Origin: an uncultured Eubacteriaceae bacterium
Lineage (GTDB): Bacteria > Bacillota > Clostridia > Eubacteriales > Eubacteriaceae
Assembly (NCBI GenBank): GCA_937872065.1
Contig: CALMRA010000073.1
Location: 1-46,908 of the forward strand
Direction of reading: 5' to 3'
DNA: 46,908 bases
Below are positions 23,141-29,884 of this stretch, in pieces (the first letter of the stretch is position 1; each line of letters starts with the position of its first letter). The notes under the pieces were generated by a model, which was given only the letters and a program-made list of their open reading frames with translations, searched no databases and had not been told where the DNA came from. The translations under genes and the position numbers were made by a program.

Positions 23141-23188
23141 TAAAAAGAACGGGCGTTCCGCACTGCTGCGGAATGCCCGTTCTTTTTA
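23141..23188. terminator. Bidirectional terminator, 21-bp stem
   Basis: 23142-23162 pairs with 23167-23187 (a single G-U), tetraloop CTGC, with A5/T5 flanks. It separates thyX-membrane protein from luxS. Confidence 0.92.
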
Positions 23189-23198
23189 TGTTTCAGAC

Positions 23199-23678
23199 TC
23201 AGGCCGGATAATGCAGATTTTCCGGCTGGATATCCTCGAGAACCTCAGTCAGATATTTCTTCGCTTCCCATCTGCACATATCGAGATTCTGATCCAGGTA
23301 GTTCCCGCAGTCTCTGGCGGCGGCTCCCGGAATTTCACCGTCAAATTCCGATACGAATCTAAACATGTCGGTGACCATCGGAACGATATCCTCTGACTCC
23401 AGATCGCCCTTGAGTACGAGGTAGCAGCCGGTGCGGCAGCCCATCGGTCCGAAATAGATCACCTGATCCGAGACCTGCGGATCGTTTCGAAGCCACGTCG
23501 CGCCGAGATGTTCCAGCGTGTGAAGCTCCGCCGTGTTCATAACCGGTTCGCGGTTCGGTTCCTTCATACGAATATCGAAGGTCGTAACCGTTTCGTCGCC
23601 GACCTTGTCTTTTCTCGATACGTAGATTCCTCGAAGCAGCTCCAGATGATTAACTTCAAAACTCGGTATTTTTTCCAT
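23199..23678 (-). CDS. luxS: S-ribosylhomocysteine lyase LuxS
   Basis: Splits S-ribosylhomocysteine into homocysteine and the precursor of autoinducer-2, so it works in the activated methyl cycle and in AI-2 production. It has 159 residues. Seen: metal ligands H53 and H57 with E56 between them (HTLEH), C124 (ARDCGNY), and the catalytic C81 (GPMGCRTGCY). All match the family pattern. The start codon overlaps the recU stop by one base (TAATG) with GAGG upstream, so translation is coupled. It is the last gene of the RluA-type/recU/luxS unit; no adenosylhomocysteine nucleosidase gene is in the window. Terminated by the 21-bp hairpin. Confidence 0.97.
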   Translation of the reverse strand: MEKIPSFEVNHLELLRGIYVSRKDKVGDETVTTFDIRMKEPNREPVMNTAELHTLEHLGATWLRNDPQVSDQVIYFGPMGCRTGCYLVLKGDLESEDIVPMVTDMFRFVSEFDGEIPGAAARDCGNYLDQNLDMCRWEAKKYLTEVLEDIQPENLHYPA

Positions 23679-24232
23679 TATGCCTCTTTTTCTCCTTGAT
23701 TCTCTTTCTGATTCAGGTATGTTGATACGGCTTCCAGATAATGCAGCTGGATATTGCCGTGAGTTCCGATCCGGTATCGCTCTTCAAAGGCGCTCCTCGG
23801 GATCGACTTGCGTCCGCCGTTCGCCGCGCCGTCCCAGAATTCGAACAGCTTTTCACAGGGCAGCAGAAACGCGGCGTCCTCGCTGCGAAACAGGACGATC
23901 AGGAAGGCGAGTCCGTTCTGAGCGGCAAAGGCCTTCATGAATTCGATCTGATGCTCGTGAATATTGTAGAGGGGCAGGTTTGCGATGGCCGTTTCCTTCG
24001 CGTCGAAGCAGACCGGAAAGCCCTGGATATTGCCGATATAGTCGACCGTCGATTTTTTGTCGAAATAAGCCAGCCGGATCGTTCCCCGCGGCTTGTCGTA
24101 TTCCACGGGGGTAATCGGCGTCGGAACCTTCTGTACGACGGCGAGCCCCTGATCCATATAGATCTGGTTTACGCTGTCCAGCGTTTCTTCAAGGTAAGAG
24201 CCTCTCAGGCCCCGGGAATTCCAGGCGCCCAT
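23678..24232 (-). CDS. recU: Holliday junction resolvase RecU
   Basis: Cuts four-way DNA junctions during recombinational repair, the Firmicutes counterpart of RuvC. It has 184 residues, slightly short because the N-terminal tail of Bacillus RecU is missing. Seen: the family opening NSRGLRGSYLEETLD, PTPITPVEYD, the Asp of the active site D64 (STVDYIG), then the nuclease motif FDAKET with D77 and K79, and the later HEHQIEFM. In Bacillus subtilis the acidic residue at the D77 position is a glutamate; Asp is a conservative change. It sits between an RluA-type synthase (TGATG overlap) and luxS (TAATG overlap). In Bacillus recU is next to the PBP1A gene ponA; here PBP1A is about 8 kb away. Confidence 0.93.
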   Translation of the reverse strand: MGAWNSRGLRGSYLEETLDSVNQIYMDQGLAVVQKVPTPITPVEYDKPRGTIRLAYFDKKSTVDYIGNIQGFPVCFDAKETAIANLPLYNIHEHQIEFMKAFAAQNGLAFLIVLFRSEDAAFLLPCEKLFEFWDGAANGGRKSIPRSAFEERYRIGTHGNIQLHYLEAVSTYLNQKENQGEKEA

Positions 24233-25245
24233 CAGCTGTTCCTTTTATCAGATAAGCTGCCGCTTCCGCTCGCTCCGGCTTGAAGTGAACCCAGTGTCTG
24301 CCCGCTGAAAATTCCGCGTATCACAGCCGCGAAATCGTCGGGAAGGGGAGCGGAAACGTCGAGATAGGTCCCGTCATCGTCACGCAGCGCGTATCGGTAT
24401 GCGTGAAGCAGCTGGCTGCGTACTCCGAAGCGTTCCCGCAGATCCCGGTTCACCTCACGGGAGCCGTATTTGGTATCTCCGGCGACCGGCGTCCCGTTTT
24501 GTTCGAACTGGGCCCGGATCTGATGGGTCCGACCCGTAAGCAGGCGAACCAGAAGGAGCGTATAACCGTCTGCCGAGGCCAGGGGCCGGTATTCGAGAAC
24601 GGCTTCCTTTGAATCGTCTCCGCCGGAGCGAGTTTTCATATCCGTCCCGTCTCTTGACAGCCGGCTTCGCAGCTCACCCGGAGAGGTGATCGTTCCGGAG
24701 ACGACCGTCAGATATTCCTTGTCGGTATCGCGGTCCCGGATAGAGGCCAGCGCCCGTTTCTGCGCTTCGTAGTTTTTCGGGAAGAGCAGAACGCCGCTGG
24801 TATTGCGGTCAAGTCTCGTCAGCGGAGCCGGCGAAAAGGTTTCTGTCCCGTGAATAAAGGCGCGCGCAGCTTCCGCCGCGCTGAGCTCCCCGGTATGATC
24901 CGGCTGGGAGAGAACTCCGGCCGGCTTGCTGATTACCAGATAGTCCTCGTCCTCGAAAACAGGATTGTTAAACGAGCTCCGCAGCCCGGACGGCAGCGAT
25001 TCAGGTGAAACGGTCTGCTTCGGACCGCCGCTGAAAGCGGTGATGGTCTCATCTGAAAAATACAGGCGGACGATGTCGCCGTCATGAAGCATCGCCGACG
25101 CTTCCGCACGTCCTCCGTTCAGCTTGATCCGTTTCTTTCTGATCATTTTCTGCAGGAAGCTCTTTCCGGCTTCAGGCAGGAGCTTGATCAGATAACGGTC
25201 CAGGCGCTGGCCGGACGCGTCCGGACCGATCGTATAATCTCTCAT
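24232..25245 (-). CDS. RluA-family pseudouridine synthase (S4 domain)
   Basis: Converts specific uridines of rRNA or tRNA to pseudouridine. It has 337 residues. Domains: an S4 RNA-binding domain at about 10-65 (GQRLDRYLIKLL ... RKKRIKLNG), then the catalytic domain with motif TRLDRNTSG, whose D146 is the catalytic aspartate, followed by LLTGRTHQIRAQF and TPVAGDTKYG. The order matches RluC/RluD proteins. The first residue of the motif is Thr instead of the usual His/Asn. Which uridine it modifies cannot be told. The C-terminal 25 residues are Gly/Ser rich. Start ATG 25245 has GGAAG upstream. First gene of the RluA-recU-luxS unit; a related synthase is at 30845. Confidence 0.92.
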   Translation of the reverse strand: MRDYTIGPDASGQRLDRYLIKLLPEAGKSFLQKMIRKKRIKLNGGRAEASAMLHDGDIVRLYFSDETITAFSGGPKQTVSPESLPSGLRSSFNNPVFEDEDYLVISKPAGVLSQPDHTGELSAAEAARAFIHGTETFSPAPLTRLDRNTSGVLLFPKNYEAQKRALASIRDRDTDKEYLTVVSGTITSPGELRSRLSRDGTDMKTRSGGDDSKEAVLEYRPLASADGYTLLLVRLLTGRTHQIRAQFEQNGTPVAGDTKYGSREVNRDLRERFGVRSQLLHAYRYALRDDDGTYLDVSAPLPDDFAAVIRGIFSGQTLGSLQAGASGSGSLSDKRNS

Positions 25246-25304: not shown

Positions 25305-26150
25305 TCAGATATTGCCTTCGTATACGTACTTCAGATGCTTTCTGGCCGTATCTGCGAGGTCGAGGACCTTCTGAACAGGCGTCGGACCGCGGTCGGTCAT
25401 ATGATAGCACGGGAAAAACCGGGTGACATGAAGGACGATATCGGGGCTTACCGATGCGAGAAACGACGACAGCTCGTCCATTTCTTCCGTACTGTCATTT
25501 TCGCCCGGGATCACGAGGGTCGCGACTTCCACATGAGAAGACGCCGCCGCTCTTCTGATATTGTCCTTGACAACCTGGAGCGTACCGCCTACTTTTTTAT
25601 AAAAGGCTTCGGAGTAGCTCTTCAGGTCGATATTGAACGCGTTCGTATAGGGCAGCACCGCGTCGAGTGTCGCCGTTTCGGTCCAGCCGTTTGTCACAAT
25701 CACGTTCTTCATGCCGGCGCCGTGTACGAGCTTCGCGGTGTCACGGACGAATTCCCATCCGACAAGAGGCTCGTTATAGGTATAGGCGACGCCGATATTC
25801 CCCTGAGGGGCAAGCTGCTGTGCGCGCCGGCAGAGCTCCTCCGGCGTGATGTCGTCAAACCGGATATCCGAGCCGTCCGTCATCGAGATCTCGTAGTTCT
25901 GACAGAATGGACAGCGCAGGTTGCATCCCCAGGATCCGACGGACAGGATCCTTGATCCGGGGAAGAAGCGCGCCAGGGGCTTCTTTTCGATCGGATCGAG
26001 GGCCGCAGCGGTTATCTTGCCGTAATTATCGTCGATGACCGTTCCGGAGACACAGCGCCGGGCTCTGCAGAAGCCGAGACCTCCCTCCGGAATCCGGCAG
26101 TGTCTCGGACAGGCCGTACAGACGGTCTTCGTTTCGTCTTCTGCGTTCAT
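25305..26150 (-). CDS. amrS: AmmeMemoRadiSam system radical SAM enzyme (AmrS)
   Basis: Radical SAM protein of 281 residues, third gene of the AmmeMemoRadiSam cluster. Seen: the radical SAM CxxxCxxC at C76, C80 and C83 (WGCNLRCPFCQNYE), preceded by an N-terminal cysteine set C11, C14, C18 and C28 that could hold a second metal centre, and downstream SAM-binding segments (NIGVAYTYNEPLVGWEF, MKNVIVTNGW). The fold resembles pyruvate formate-lyase activating enzymes, which suggests it makes a glycyl-type or substrate radical, but the true target is unknown. Its ATG overlaps the AMMECR1 gene's TGA (ATGA). The three genes occur together in many anaerobes and archaea; a physiological role is not settled as far as I know. 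Confidence 0.9.
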   Translation of the reverse strand: MNAEDETKTVCTACPRHCRIPEGGLGFCRARRCVSGTVIDDNYGKITAAALDPIEKKPLARFFPGSRILSVGSWGCNLRCPFCQNYEISMTDGSDIRFDDITPEELCRRAQQLAPQGNIGVAYTYNEPLVGWEFVRDTAKLVHGAGMKNVIVTNGWTETATLDAVLPYTNAFNIDLKSYSEAFYKKVGGTLQVVKDNIRRAAASSHVEVATLVIPGENDSTEEMDELSSFLASVSPDIVLHVTRFFPCYHMTDRGPTPVQKVLDLADTARKHLKYVYEGNI

Positions 26151-26662
26151 TTGTGACGCACCACTTCGAAACGTTCGAGCATAATCGGTTCTTCCGGAGC
26201 AATTCCGCCCTTCTGCATCGCGATTCCGACCTGTTCTTCCGGCGTATCCACCCCTTCGAGATCCGGCAGCAGAAGACCTCTGCGCCTGCCGTTTGAGACG
26301 ATCACACCGTAACGGTGAACGTCCAGATCGTCAAGCGAATAGATCTGCTCCGGTTCTCCGAGTACATCCACAGAATAGACCAGATCCGCGAGCTCGTCCT
26401 GACGGACCGGTCTGAAGCGGGGATCGCCGGTTCCGGCCGATACCGCGTTGTTCATTATTTCGTCAGCCAGACACGGCTGAACGGGGCCGATCGTTCCGAT
26501 GCAGCCTCTGAGCTGACCGTGCTTTTTCAGCGACACGAAGGCGCCGGCACGGTCCTTCGTCATCTCGTTCGGAAGTGCGGTGCGGTCCACATCGGGCATA
26601 TGCCCTGTCGTCACATAGCTTTCAAGCGTTTTTCTTGCAAGATCTGTATATGCGTCACCCAT
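26147..26662 (-). CDS. amrA: AMMECR1 domain protein (AmrA)
   Basis: Cytoplasmic protein of 171 residues belonging to the AMMECR1 family. Seen: the family motif QLRGCIGTIGP near residues 50-60, followed by the conserved DPRFRPV and a C-terminal LLPDLEG-VDTPEEQV. The conserved LRGCIG is thought to form the functional groove, though no reaction has been proven in the family to my knowledge. Start ATG 26662 has CGGAGA upstream. It stands between the Memo-like gene (61 bases) and AmrS (four-base overlap). The three families co-occur so consistently that they are treated as one system. Confidence 0.92.
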   Translation of the reverse strand: MGDAYTDLARKTLESYVTTGHMPDVDRTALPNEMTKDRAGAFVSLKKHGQLRGCIGTIGPVQPCLADEIMNNAVSAGTGDPRFRPVRQDELADLVYSVDVLGEPEQIYSLDDLDVHRYGVIVSNGRRRGLLLPDLEGVDTPEEQVGIAMQKGGIAPEEPIMLERFEVVRHK

Positions 26663-26723
26663 TTTTTTCTCCGTTCATTTTCTTCGTTGCAGCAGAACAG
26701 TGATTTCAGCGCCCGACGGCAGT

Positions 26724-27527
26724 TCAGCTCTGATCGGGAATGAATTCGGCGCAGGCGTATCCGACTCCGTAGGGTCCCTCGTAGGACAGGAACCGGGTCT
26801 TGTATTTCAGTCCGTTCAGCGCGCCGGCCATGATAATGAACGAGCGGAGCCCGCATTCGGCTGCGCGGTCGCAGAAGCCTTCGTCAAAATCGAGCAGCTC
26901 GGGCAGTTTGTCGCGTTTGATGATCGAGACGAGCTCGCTGTCAAATTCGGGGCCTTCCGGACGATAGCCGTAAGGGCCGTCCTTTTTGAGCACATGAGAC
27001 AGGTCGCCGGATGCGATCAGCACGATCCGTCGTCCGAGCTGATCGGAGGCTTTCGTAATTTCTTCTCCGAAACGGTAATGCGTTTCCGCCGACATGCCTG
27101 ACAGGCCGATTCTGACAAATTTTGTCGATCCGATCAGGTCGCGGATAAAATACAGCGGAATCATAAACGCGTGGTCCAGCTCCGGATCCTGCTCTCCGAG
27201 AAATCCCGCGGAGATCCGATCCTCTTCACTGAAATCTGCGATCTGTTCGGCAAGCTCCTGATCGTAGGCGATATGAAAGTTGACCTGGGGCGCCCCGAAC
27301 TGCGCGAAGCTGCCCGACGCTTCGCTTCCTGGTGAAATATGAATATAATCCCGATACATGATCGAATGAGGCGTCGTGATCACGACCGTTTCAGGCTTCA
27401 GCTCCCTGATCTTCGCTGCGATCTGCTCGTAGCTTTCGACTGTTTTCGGAATGCCGTCTTCCTGGCCGCGCCCCACTGCGGGGATGATCAGCGGCGGATG
27501 CGGAACAATAAAAGCACCGACTAACAT
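26724..27527 (-). CDS. amrB: Memo-like/extradiol dioxygenase LigB-fold protein (AmrB)
   Basis: Protein of 267 residues with the LigB-type dioxygenase fold used by Memo proteins. Seen: the N-terminal FIVPHPPLIIP (H10), TTPHSIMYRDYIHI, DHAFMIPLYF and IASGDLSHVL, the set of conserved histidines and acidic residues found in this family. Some members bind metal; catalysis has not been shown for bacterial Memo-like proteins as far as I know, and human MEMO1 is a related protein of debated activity. AAAGGAGG stands directly before the ATG. It heads the cluster followed by amrA and amrS on the same strand. Confidence 0.9.
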   Translation of the reverse strand: MLVGAFIVPHPPLIIPAVGRGQEDGIPKTVESYEQIAAKIRELKPETVVITTPHSIMYRDYIHISPGSEASGSFAQFGAPQVNFHIAYDQELAEQIADFSEEDRISAGFLGEQDPELDHAFMIPLYFIRDLIGSTKFVRIGLSGMSAETHYRFGEEITKASDQLGRRIVLIASGDLSHVLKKDGPYGYRPEGPEFDSELVSIIKRDKLPELLDFDEGFCDRAAECGLRSFIIMAGALNGLKYKTRFLSYEGPYGVGYACAEFIPDQS

Positions 27528-27588: not shown

Positions 27589-27629
27589 TAAAAACTGCGT
27601 TTCCTGCTTGGAAACAGGAAAGGAGTATG

Positions 27630-29249
27630 ATGGATTCAAGTTATCTGAGTACGCTCGAAGCGTCCTTCTATATCTTTCCGATCATTGCCGCGGTCCTCAC
27701 CGTTCCTTATCTGCTTTATGAATATCATAAGTTCGGCGGCATTCCGCCTATCCGAAGCTTCCTCTTCTTCTCGTTTATTCTGTATCTGACATGCTGTTAT
27801 ATCCTTGTCGTGATGCCGCTTCCGACGATTGAGGAAGTCAGTCAGATGACGGGACCGGTGACAGACTTCCGGCTGTTCGGTTTTATTGACAATATACGCG
27901 AATACACAAATTTTGTTCTGACAGATCCCTCGACCTGGGCGGAAGGCTTCCAGAGCGTTTATGTTTACGAACCCTTTTACAATATTCTGATGACGATCCC
28001 CTTCGGGATCTATCTGAAATACTATTTCAACTGCGGATGGTTCAAGACGATTTTCTTCGGCTTCCTGCTGAGTCTCTCGTTTGAAATGCTGCAGCTGTCC
28101 GCGCTGTTCGGCCTGTATCCGCGGCCATACCGTCTGTTTCAGCTCGACGATCTGCTGCTCAATACGTCCGGCGCGGCAATCGGATGGATTCTGGCGCCGC
28201 TGTTCACATGGATGCTCCCGAGCCGGGAAAAGCTCGATCAGATCAGCTATGAGCGCGGTTCGAAGGTCTCGGTTATCAGAAGAGGCGCGGCGTTTCTCGT
28301 AGACGGCTTTATTCTGATGGCCTTCATGAATCTGATAAGCAATCTGCCCGGTTTTGAAGCCTTCGATATTCTGAACGGGGAAGGCTTTACGGCAAGCTTT
28401 TTTGCCTTTTACATCGGAGCTTTCCTGTATTTTATCGTTCTTCCGTGGATTACACGCGGCAGAACACCAGGGAAAATGCTCGTGGGCCTGCGGGTAGTTA
28501 CCGAGGACGGCAGAACGCCGTCTTTTAAACAGTATCTGATTCGCTACGGCCTCGAATATCTCGTCGCGCTTCCGGCTCCGGTGCTGGCGGTTAAAGTTTT
28601 TCAGTACACAGAATATACAAACGGGCTGCTCGACATTTTTCTCGTGATCATCTCGGGATGTTTCCTGGTTTTCTTTATTCTGTTCGCGTTTCAGATCCTG
28701 ATTTCGCTGTTTACCGGCGAAGCAAGGCTCACAAGCGAACGGATGTCGAGAACAAAGATCATCAGTACGCATCGTGCCGGTCAGCGGGCCGGTTCGGACT
28801 CCCGCAGGGCGCCGGATCAGAATCCGGACGGCCGGATGAATAATCACCGGGAACATAGAGCATCATCCGCCGGAAATAACCGGACGGTTACGTCCGGTGC
28901 CGACGGAAACAGGAGACCTTCAAGCCGGTCCTCGTCGGGCTGTCCGTCCTCAAACAGGGTGTCTGCAAATCGTACGTCGTCAAACAGAGCTTCTTCGAAT
29001 CGAGGGTCGTCAAACAGGATACCCTCAAACCGGACGATCTCAGACCGTACGAACGCCGGTGCGTCCCGAAACAGTCAGACGGTCGATACGACTTCCGTCC
29101 GTACCCGGACCGGATTAGATACCCGCAGTCTGAATACAGCGGATTCGTATGGGAAGCAGACTCGCTCCGCATCCGGAATCACAGCAGGACAGACACAGCG
29201 GACGACTGAAGACGGACGGAACATCCTGAAGAAACGGCGGAGCAGCTGA
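27630..29249 (+). CDS. VanZ-like and RDD-domain membrane protein with pentapeptide-repeat tail
   Basis: Integral membrane protein of 539 residues built from two unrelated domains. VanZ-like part (about 1-205): five hydrophobic helices with the conserved FGIYLKYYF and SLSFEMLQLSALFGLYPRPYR/DDLLLNTSGAAIGW segments. RDD part (about 215-375): begins RRGAAFLVDGFILMAF and includes RGRTPGKMLVGLRVV, with helices to match. The last 150 residues are soluble and Ser/Asn/Arg-rich, with seven tandem 5-residue repeats at about 440-474 (SSNRV, SANRT, SSNRA and so on). VanZ domains are linked to glycopeptide tolerance in a few cases, RDD to osmotic or sodium stress; no specific role can be assigned. The second of two adjacent ATGs is preferred from the spacing of AAGGAG. 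Divergent from the Amr cluster. Confidence 0.88.
   Translation: MDSSYLSTLEASFYIFPIIAAVLTVPYLLYEYHKFGGIPPIRSFLFFSFILYLTCCYILVVMPLPTIEEVSQMTGPVTDFRLFGFIDNIREYTNFVLTDPSTWAEGFQSVYVYEPFYNILMTIPFGIYLKYYFNCGWFKTIFFGFLLSLSFEMLQLSALFGLYPRPYRLFQLDDLLLNTSGAAIGWILAPLFTWMLPSREKLDQISYERGSKVSVIRRGAAFLVDGFILMAFMNLISNLPGFEAFDILNGEGFTASFFAFYIGAFLYFIVLPWITRGRTPGKMLVGLRVVTEDGRTPSFKQYLIRYGLEYLVALPAPVLAVKVFQYTEYTNGLLDIFLVIISGCFLVFFILFAFQILISLFTGEARLTSERMSRTKIISTHRAGQRAGSDSRRAPDQNPDGRMNNHREHRASSAGNNRTVTSGADGNRRPSSRSSSGCPSSNRVSANRTSSNRASSNRGSSNRIPSNRTISDRTNAGASRNSQTVDTTSVRTRTGLDTRSLNTADSYGKQTRSASGITAGQTQRTTEDGRNILKKRRSS
28947..29051 (+). repeat. Seven tandem 15-bp units coding for Ser-Ser-Asn-Arg-X
   Basis: In-frame repeat within the tail of the VanZ-RDD gene. 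Unit by unit: SSNRV, SANRT, SSNRA, SSNRG, SSNRI, PSNRT, ISDRT. The DNA shows recurring TCGTCAAACAG, so it arose by duplication. Confidence 0.85.
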
Positions 29250-29329: not shown

Positions 29330-29884
29330 TCAGATCTCGCTGATTTTTGTTACGGTCGTTTTCTCAAGTCCCGGTCGAACCTCTTCATGCTCGACATTGA
29401 ACAGTTCGGACGGGATCGTTTCCTCAAGTCCGGGAATCGAAGGCGCATAGATGAAGCGTCCGCCGGTTTTCAGACAGCCGAGAAGGTTGTAATATGCGAG
29501 CGTCAGGCCCTCGAGCGCATCGGATTTTTCGCTGATCGCAGTGTTGATCGTTTCTGCAACGCCGATATTCGAAAGTATCGTGCCCCACTGATTCTGACCG
29601 AAGTTGGAAACGGTCCAGCTTGCATTTTTAATGAACGGATAGTCCGGCACGTCGATATCGGCGCCGTAGGCCTGAAGTCCCTGCATGCGCAGCGCGAGTA
29701 CAAGCTGAGGATCCGGTCCGCAGCTTACGTCAAGAACGGGCTCCATCGTCGTTTTCGAATCCAGGCCGAACAGTTTCATCTGAAATTCGCCAGAATACAG
29801 AGAATTAATCCGGCTGCGGCCTTTATCATCGGATGTCTGTTCGGTCGCAGCTTCGTTCTGCGGATTCTTTTTTTGATCTTCCAT
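29330..29884 (-). CDS. Degenerate SAM-methyltransferase-like protein
   Basis: Unrecognised protein of 184 residues. Seen: a charged, Gln/Glu-rich N-terminal tail of about 40 residues, then a Rossmann-like segment EPVLDVSCGPDPQLVLALRMQGLQAYGADID that looks like methyltransferase motif I with an acidic end of strand two. What follows is shorter than a normal methyltransferase (AYYNLLGCLKTGGRFIYAPSIPGLEE corresponds to the RLLKPGG strand and its successor), with no clear substrate domain. It may be a small methyltransferase, or an inactive relative that binds SAM. Start ATG 29884 has GGGAG upstream. It is convergent with the VanZ-RDD gene, with only 80 bases between, and divergent from radC. Confidence 0.72.
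   Translation of the reverse strand: MEDQKKNPQNEAATEQTSDDKGRSRINSLYSGEFQMKLFGLDSKTTMEPVLDVSCGPDPQLVLALRMQGLQAYGADIDVPDYPFIKNASWTVSNFGQNQWGTILSNIGVAETINTAISEKSDALEGLTLAYYNLLGCLKTGGRFIYAPSIPGLEETIPSELFNVEHEEVRPGLEKTTVTKISEI

Follow-up and report, generated by a model that had tools for sequence, protein, structure and literature searches.

An intact AmmeMemoRadiSam gene trio in an uncultured Eubacteriaceae bacterium with a further, disabled AmrBA copy

The gene trio and its surroundings

The window (the whole stretch of 46,908 nucleotides that was analysed) contains three neighbouring genes for a LigB/Memo-fold protein (AmrB), an AMMECR1-domain protein (AmrA) and a radical SAM enzyme (AmrS). 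They occupy positions 25305–27527 and are all read from the minus strand, in agreement with the first-pass annotation, which had placed a complete amrB-amrA-amrS cluster there. The features of the locus are the following.

26724..27527, minus strand: amrB, LigB/Memo-fold protein of 267 residues (Pfam LigB, Memo; TIGR04336)
26147..26662, minus strand: amrA, AMMECR1-domain protein of 171 residues (TIGR04335; Pfam AMMECR1)
26147..26150, minus strand: four-base overlap (ATGA) of the amrA stop and amrS start codons, read from the sequence
25305..26150, minus strand: amrS, radical SAM enzyme of 281 residues (TIGR04337)
24232..25245, minus strand: RluA-family pseudouridine synthase gene (TIGR00005/PseudoU_synth_2)
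23678..24232, minus strand: recU, Holliday junction resolvase (Pfam RecU, 191 bits)
23199..23678, minus strand: luxS, S-ribosylhomocysteine lyase (NF002604, 222 bits)
23143..23186, no strand assigned: terminator-like inverted repeat of 20 pairs with A/T flanks, closing the run (pattern match only)

A strong ribosome-binding site, AAAGGAGG, lies 5' of the amrB ATG. The ATGA overlap between amrA and amrS, which had also been described earlier, suggests translational coupling of the two genes. Beyond amrS the same-strand run continues through the pseudouridine synthase gene and recU, which overlap by one base, to luxS as its final gene. Only 59 bp separate amrS from the pseudouridine synthase gene, which possibly belongs to the same transcript and lies outside the definition of the trio. 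The inverted repeat sits between luxS and a convergent gene and is probably a two-way terminator. On the other side of the trio, positions 27627–29249 of the plus strand encode a fusion of a VanZ and an RDD domain with a long, repetitive tail rich in Ser, Asn and Arg. Next to it, a 184-residue reading frame (29330–29884, minus strand) has no Pfam or NCBIfam match and recurs in the same place, with 64–65% identity, in two genomes of another genus (G309 and G310). This frame is better conserved than its VanZ-like neighbour and contains a methyltransferase-like glycine motif.

All three proteins score above the curated NCBIfam cut-offs (TIGR04336, TIGR04335 and TIGR04337), which bears out their assignment to AmmeMemoRadiSam, and the genes are adjacent and on one strand. 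The window thus almost certainly holds a genuine AmmeMemoRadiSam module in which all three predicted active sites are intact. It differs from the described module in the surrounding class in that amrB and amrA are separate, where a single fused gene is usual, and in that its AmrB only narrowly passes TIGR04336. Since curated models for all three families exist, the trio is a further member of this group and not a new system. The earlier suggestion of an undescribed biochemical system is not supported: the NCBI models already bear the AmmeMemoRadiSam name, and the association of Memo, AMMECR1 and a radical SAM enzyme has been published (Burroughs et al., 2019, as cited in PMC7159879). The accompanying remark that the trio has no settled function does stand, a literature search for AmmeMemoRadiSam having returned only incidental annotations and no established function.

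Predicted active sites of the three proteins

AmrB matches Pfam LigB strongly (147.6 bits, E = 5e-43) and exceeds the cut-offs of Pfam Memo (30.1 bits, cut-off 27) and TIGR04336 (28.9 bits, cut-off 26) only slightly, so that it is a LigB-like protein which, judged by its overall sequence, barely passes as Memo. The conserved histidines mentioned previously are present (H10, H54, H119 and H178) and are joined in the conserved set by an invariant cysteine, C225, that had not been mentioned. Among 119 AmrB domains, taken from Clostridia and from further bacteria, 118–119 keep the equivalents of H10, H54, D175, H178 and C225, and 107 that of H119. The iron ligands of human MEMO1 are H49, H81 and C244; H131 and H192 are near the iron site and do not bind metal, and D189 had earlier been proposed as part of the metal site (eLife 2024, PMC11081632). 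AmrB shows the H, H, H, DxxH, Cys-Gly constellation of the MEMO1 metal site, and a non-haem iron site is predicted in AmrB, formed by H10, H54 and C225 with H119, D175 and H178 around it. The correspondence of C225 to C244 would rest on a shared Cys-Gly, the residue after C244 of MEMO1 being presumably a glycine. The preceding residue, E224, aligns with the iron ligand E251 of aminophenol dioxygenase; because E251 falls beside C225 and not on it, the ligand assignment is uncertain by one residue. As E224 is replaced by Gln in 18 of the 119 domains and C225 is invariant, C225 is favoured as the ligand.

Despite this constellation, AmrB is nearer in sequence to PF02900 (LigB) than to PF01875 (Memo), and MEMO1 is more distant from it in overall sequence and fold than are aminophenol dioxygenases and TK2203. 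The solved folds nearest to a model of the fused AmrBA of Flavonifractor (L211; pLDDT 95, pTM 0.88) are TK2203, aminophenol dioxygenases and, less closely, MEMO1, with TM scores of 0.85 to TK2203 versus 0.53–0.61 to MEMO1. The LigB fold, for which aminophenol and dihydroxyphenylacetate dioxygenases are the best matches in the PDB, could indicate that AmrB is a true extradiol ring-cleaving dioxygenase and that the trio degrades an aromatic compound. This is very improbable. The invariance of C225 beside a position that varies from Glu to Gln is unlike a glutamate ligand, and the commonest neighbours of the trio included no recognisable catabolic genes. Hosts in the window's class are largely anaerobes, in which an O2-dependent reaction is unlikely. 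MEMO1, which has the same ligands, showed no dioxygenase activity (PMC11081632).

The resemblance to MEMO1 also allows a role of AmrB in iron binding or iron sensing, like that proposed for MEMO1, in support of iron-sulfur enzymes such as AmrS. The iron ligands H49, H81 and C244 all have AmrB counterparts, and MEMO1 alters iron homeostasis (PMC11081632). Such a role would leave the AMMECR1 partner and its conserved polar residues unexplained, however, and among the genes most often found beside the trio none was recognised as serving iron uptake or cluster assembly; we regard it as unlikely.

AmrA scores 133.7 bits against TIGR04335 (E = 4e-39, cut-off 99) and 152 bits against Pfam AMMECR1, and has the LRGCIG motif attributed to it, at residues 51–56. 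This motif is of the type found in the AMMECR1 family (PF01871; 1zq7, 1vaj), from which AmrA differs in being a shorter bacterial form that lacks the eukaryotic extension. The C-terminal half of the Flavonifractor AmrBA model matches archaeal AMMECR1 structures with 29–32% sequence identity. The AmrA signature comprises Arg52, Gly53, Cys54, Glu68, Asn72, Asp80, Arg82, Phe83, Glu90, Asp99, Tyr118, Gln144, Lys151 and Arg169. Its polar part is almost invariant in canonical copies, and the residue set appears enzyme-like.

AmrS scores 241.1 bits against TIGR04337 (E = 1.5e-71, cut-off 220). The CxxxCxxC motif reported for it is found at C76, C80 and C83, and alignments of 22 and 50 sequences, from which the invariant columns were taken, give a second invariant tetrad near the N-terminus (C11, C14, C18 and C28; CX2CX3CX9C). 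The motifs DPIEKKP and TYNEP are also present. An AlphaFold model of the window's AmrS (pLDDT 96, pTM 0.92) places CxxxCxxC in a predicted partial TIM barrel, as in the radical SAM superfamily, and its nearest solved fold is the pyruvate formate-lyase (PFL) activase 3c8f (TM 0.79). AmrS shares the radical SAM core with this activase but differs from it in the N-terminal tetrad and DPIEKKP; furthermore, the most frequent amrS neighbours at 128 loci include no recognisable gene for a glycyl radical enzyme. The window's AmrS is a short form that lacks the C-terminal zinc-ribbon-like tail of some relatives; an extra tail of this kind, CPxC...CxxC, ends AmrS at five of the loci compared (L126, L133, L134, L141 and L177).

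Co-occurrence, fusion and gene neighbourhoods

Among 293 genomes of the window's class, whose relatedness makes the counts descriptive and not independent, AMMECR1 is found in 113 and AmrS in 103. All 103 AmrS genomes also encode AMMECR1, and 102 encode a LigB domain, the exception being a contig that ends inside amrA. Linkage is not needed for this association: in two single-contig genomes (G079 and G159) amrS and amrBA lie 2.4–2.5 Mb apart and are both retained, and AMMECR1 is encoded elsewhere in 13 of 14 genomes whose amrS has no AmrBA neighbour. The fourteenth, in which AMMECR1 was not found, is a record of 0.8 Mb and probably a partial genome. The three genes therefore co-vary strongly.

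Ten genomes of the class have AMMECR1 and lack AmrS, as judged by a profile search in which none of the ten scored above 70 bits, against 347 bits for a positive control. Their AmrBA is mostly intact; in seven of the ten, AmrA has every signature residue and the AmrB site is of canonical type. Serving AmrS thus cannot be the sole role of AmrBA. Loss of the AmrA cysteine was considered as a marker of AmrS loss and proved only partly true, as most of the AmrS-less genomes retain the cysteine. AmrS occurs rarely if ever without AmrBA, and AmrBA can do without AmrS.

These genomes bear on the possibility that AmrS is a maturase of AmrBA, which it would endow with a modification or a radical on AmrB or AmrA, as PFL activase does with its partner. 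Glycyl-radical activases are the enzymes nearest to AmrS by sequence and fold, and AmrS co-occurs with AmrBA. On the other hand, the same invariant AmrBA residues are kept in at least seven genomes that lack AmrS. The one candidate noticed for a glycyl-radical-like site in AmrB, a C-terminal GVGY resembling RVxGY, was rejected, because its strand aligns with IGTGNAV of aminophenol dioxygenases, which have no activase and share the Gly-x-Gly; its glycines therefore look structural. A maturase function of AmrS is accordingly an unlikely alternative in our estimation, if a somewhat better one than iron handling.

Of the 128 AmrS loci, 85 have a fused AmrBA next to amrS and nine, that of the window included, have separate genes. 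The separation in the window is a new observation, most relatives being fused. The fusion supports joint action of AmrB and AmrA, and on the grounds of nested co-occurrence, fusion and linkage it is highly probable that the three proteins serve one cellular process.

A comparison of neighbours across genomes, which had been proposed as a way of finding a common pathway, gave none: no pathway gene recurs beside the trio in all lineages among the frequent neighbours, and only lineage-limited contexts were seen. One of these is the order pseudouridine synthase-recU-luxS after amrS, which recurs in the two genomes of genus g182 mentioned above (G309 and G310) and is absent from the other loci compared. 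A second context is found in other Clostridia, in about ten families, where the trio often precedes cdaA (diadenylate cyclase), cdaR and glmM, with cwlD sometimes upstream:

L126, L127, L128, L138, L143, L146, L153 and L159: amrBA-amrS directly or closely upstream of cdaA-cdaR, often with glmM
L164, L166, L167, L172, L177, L224 and L258: the same arrangement

Within five genes of amrS, cdaA was counted at 15 of the 128 loci, cdaR at 17, glmM at 12 and cwlD at 7; a gene for an FAD-dependent dehydrogenase follows amrS in the cdaA-type context at 10. A literature search found no paper that joins AMMECR1 and diadenylate cyclase, and we know of no report that links the trio to cdaA-cdaR-glmM. The recurrent position directly upstream of these genes, sometimes downstream of cwlD, could mean that the module has a function in the cell envelope or in c-di-AMP signalling. 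However, about 110 of the 128 loci, that of the window among them, lack this context, and the neighbours in the window's lineage are instead the pseudouridine synthase gene, recU and luxS. The adjacency could also be an inherited gene order of no functional meaning, and an envelope or signalling role is improbable, to about the same degree as a maturase function.

A second AmrBA lineage and a possible role of the module

The genome from which the window is taken encodes a second AmrBA.

Contig C155, locus L003:9870-11318, plus strand: second AmrBA, fused, 482 residues (AMMECR1 gene)

The equivalents of H54, H119, H178 and C225 in this protein are Gln, Pro, Thr and Glu, respectively. Within the window's family (40 genomes), it falls in a lineage of 20 rows of the tree (SH-aLRT 100) that is distinct from the trio copies and is here called resident; an enolase gene or a divergently transcribed phospholipase-like gene adjoins the resident AmrBA in most genomes examined. 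A third LigB-family protein of 273 residues (contig C6:5860-6594; locus L007:1477-2298, minus strand) resembles stand-alone DOPA-dioxygenase-like proteins and is unlinked to AMMECR1.

Genera g2, g4, g183 and g184 have an intact resident AmrBA, and g1 (that of the window), g3, g182 and g185 a disabled one; the tree requires at least two losses of the metal site within the lineage. In g3, g182 and g185 the disabled sequences have diverged so far (26–55 bits for the Memo domain) that the replacement residues can be given only approximately; that the His and Cys motifs are gone can be read directly from the sequences. Most disabled copies have also lost the AmrA cysteine (to Trp, Ser, Glu or Arg). 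The dN/dS values of three disabled g185 copies are 0.136, 0.148 and 0.150, and AmrS and the intact copies encoded alongside them give 0.11–0.20, which indicates that these disabled copies are under selection and not decaying. The estimate covers g185; in the window's own genus the sole relative (G325) has an apparently broken frame.

The trio copies of the family are scattered in the tree among those of other Clostridia: that of the window groups with g182, those of G312/G313 and G293 with Flavonifractor-like sequences and those of G321–323 with Lachnospiraceae. This pattern suggests separate acquisitions. The AmrS tree agrees for some well supported groups and leaves the position of the window's own AmrS unresolved. 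Disabled AmrBA copies occur mostly in genomes that also hold an intact trio of other ancestry. A stricter rule, that a dead copy exists only beside an intact trio, is contradicted by one genome (G319) that has a dead copy only and no AmrS, so that partnership with the trio is not enough to explain the dead copy. At least two losses of the metal site, frequently accompanied by loss of the AMMECR1 cysteine, in a resident AmrBA that purifying selection nevertheless maintains, mostly in genomes with a separately derived trio, can be read as pointing to a conserved pseudoenzyme that would probably act as a regulator or binding partner for the active module. We consider this interpretation plausible, at slightly less than even odds.

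The explanation of the data that we favour as a whole is that of an intact module whose members share one process, with radical chemistry by AmrS and handling by AmrBA, to which we assign a probability of about one half. Its mechanistic part, the likeliest mechanism on these data, is more tentative and less probable than not. AmrS, as a PFL-activase-like radical SAM enzyme, would cleave SAM to a 5'-deoxyadenosyl radical and use it to make or modify a substrate; either this compound or what is formed from it would then go to the AmrB-AmrA pair. In the pair, the chemistry may take place at the His2-Cys metal site of AmrB, and the AMMECR1 domain may bind or process the ligand through its pocket of Cys, Arg, Asp and Lys. 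The inference in the first-pass annotation that AmrS acts on a substrate which the other two proteins bind or deliver may likewise be correct. AmrBA would work alone in some cells, and AmrS without AmrBA rarely if ever. Burroughs and co-workers, in their 2019 JBC paper, are said to have proposed links of Memo to the modification of nucleotide bases and isoprenoids.

As a trio these genes are ordinary; what merits further attention is the disabled but conserved AmrBA paralogue, together with the cdaA-glmM context. The human counterparts of Memo and AMMECR1 have been linked to cancer, iron balance and developmental disease. Testable residue sets are now given for AmrB, AmrA and AmrS, the natural dead AmrBA copies offer built-in comparisons, and the repeated position of the trio before c-di-AMP and cell-wall genes provides a phenotype lead in culturable Clostridia.
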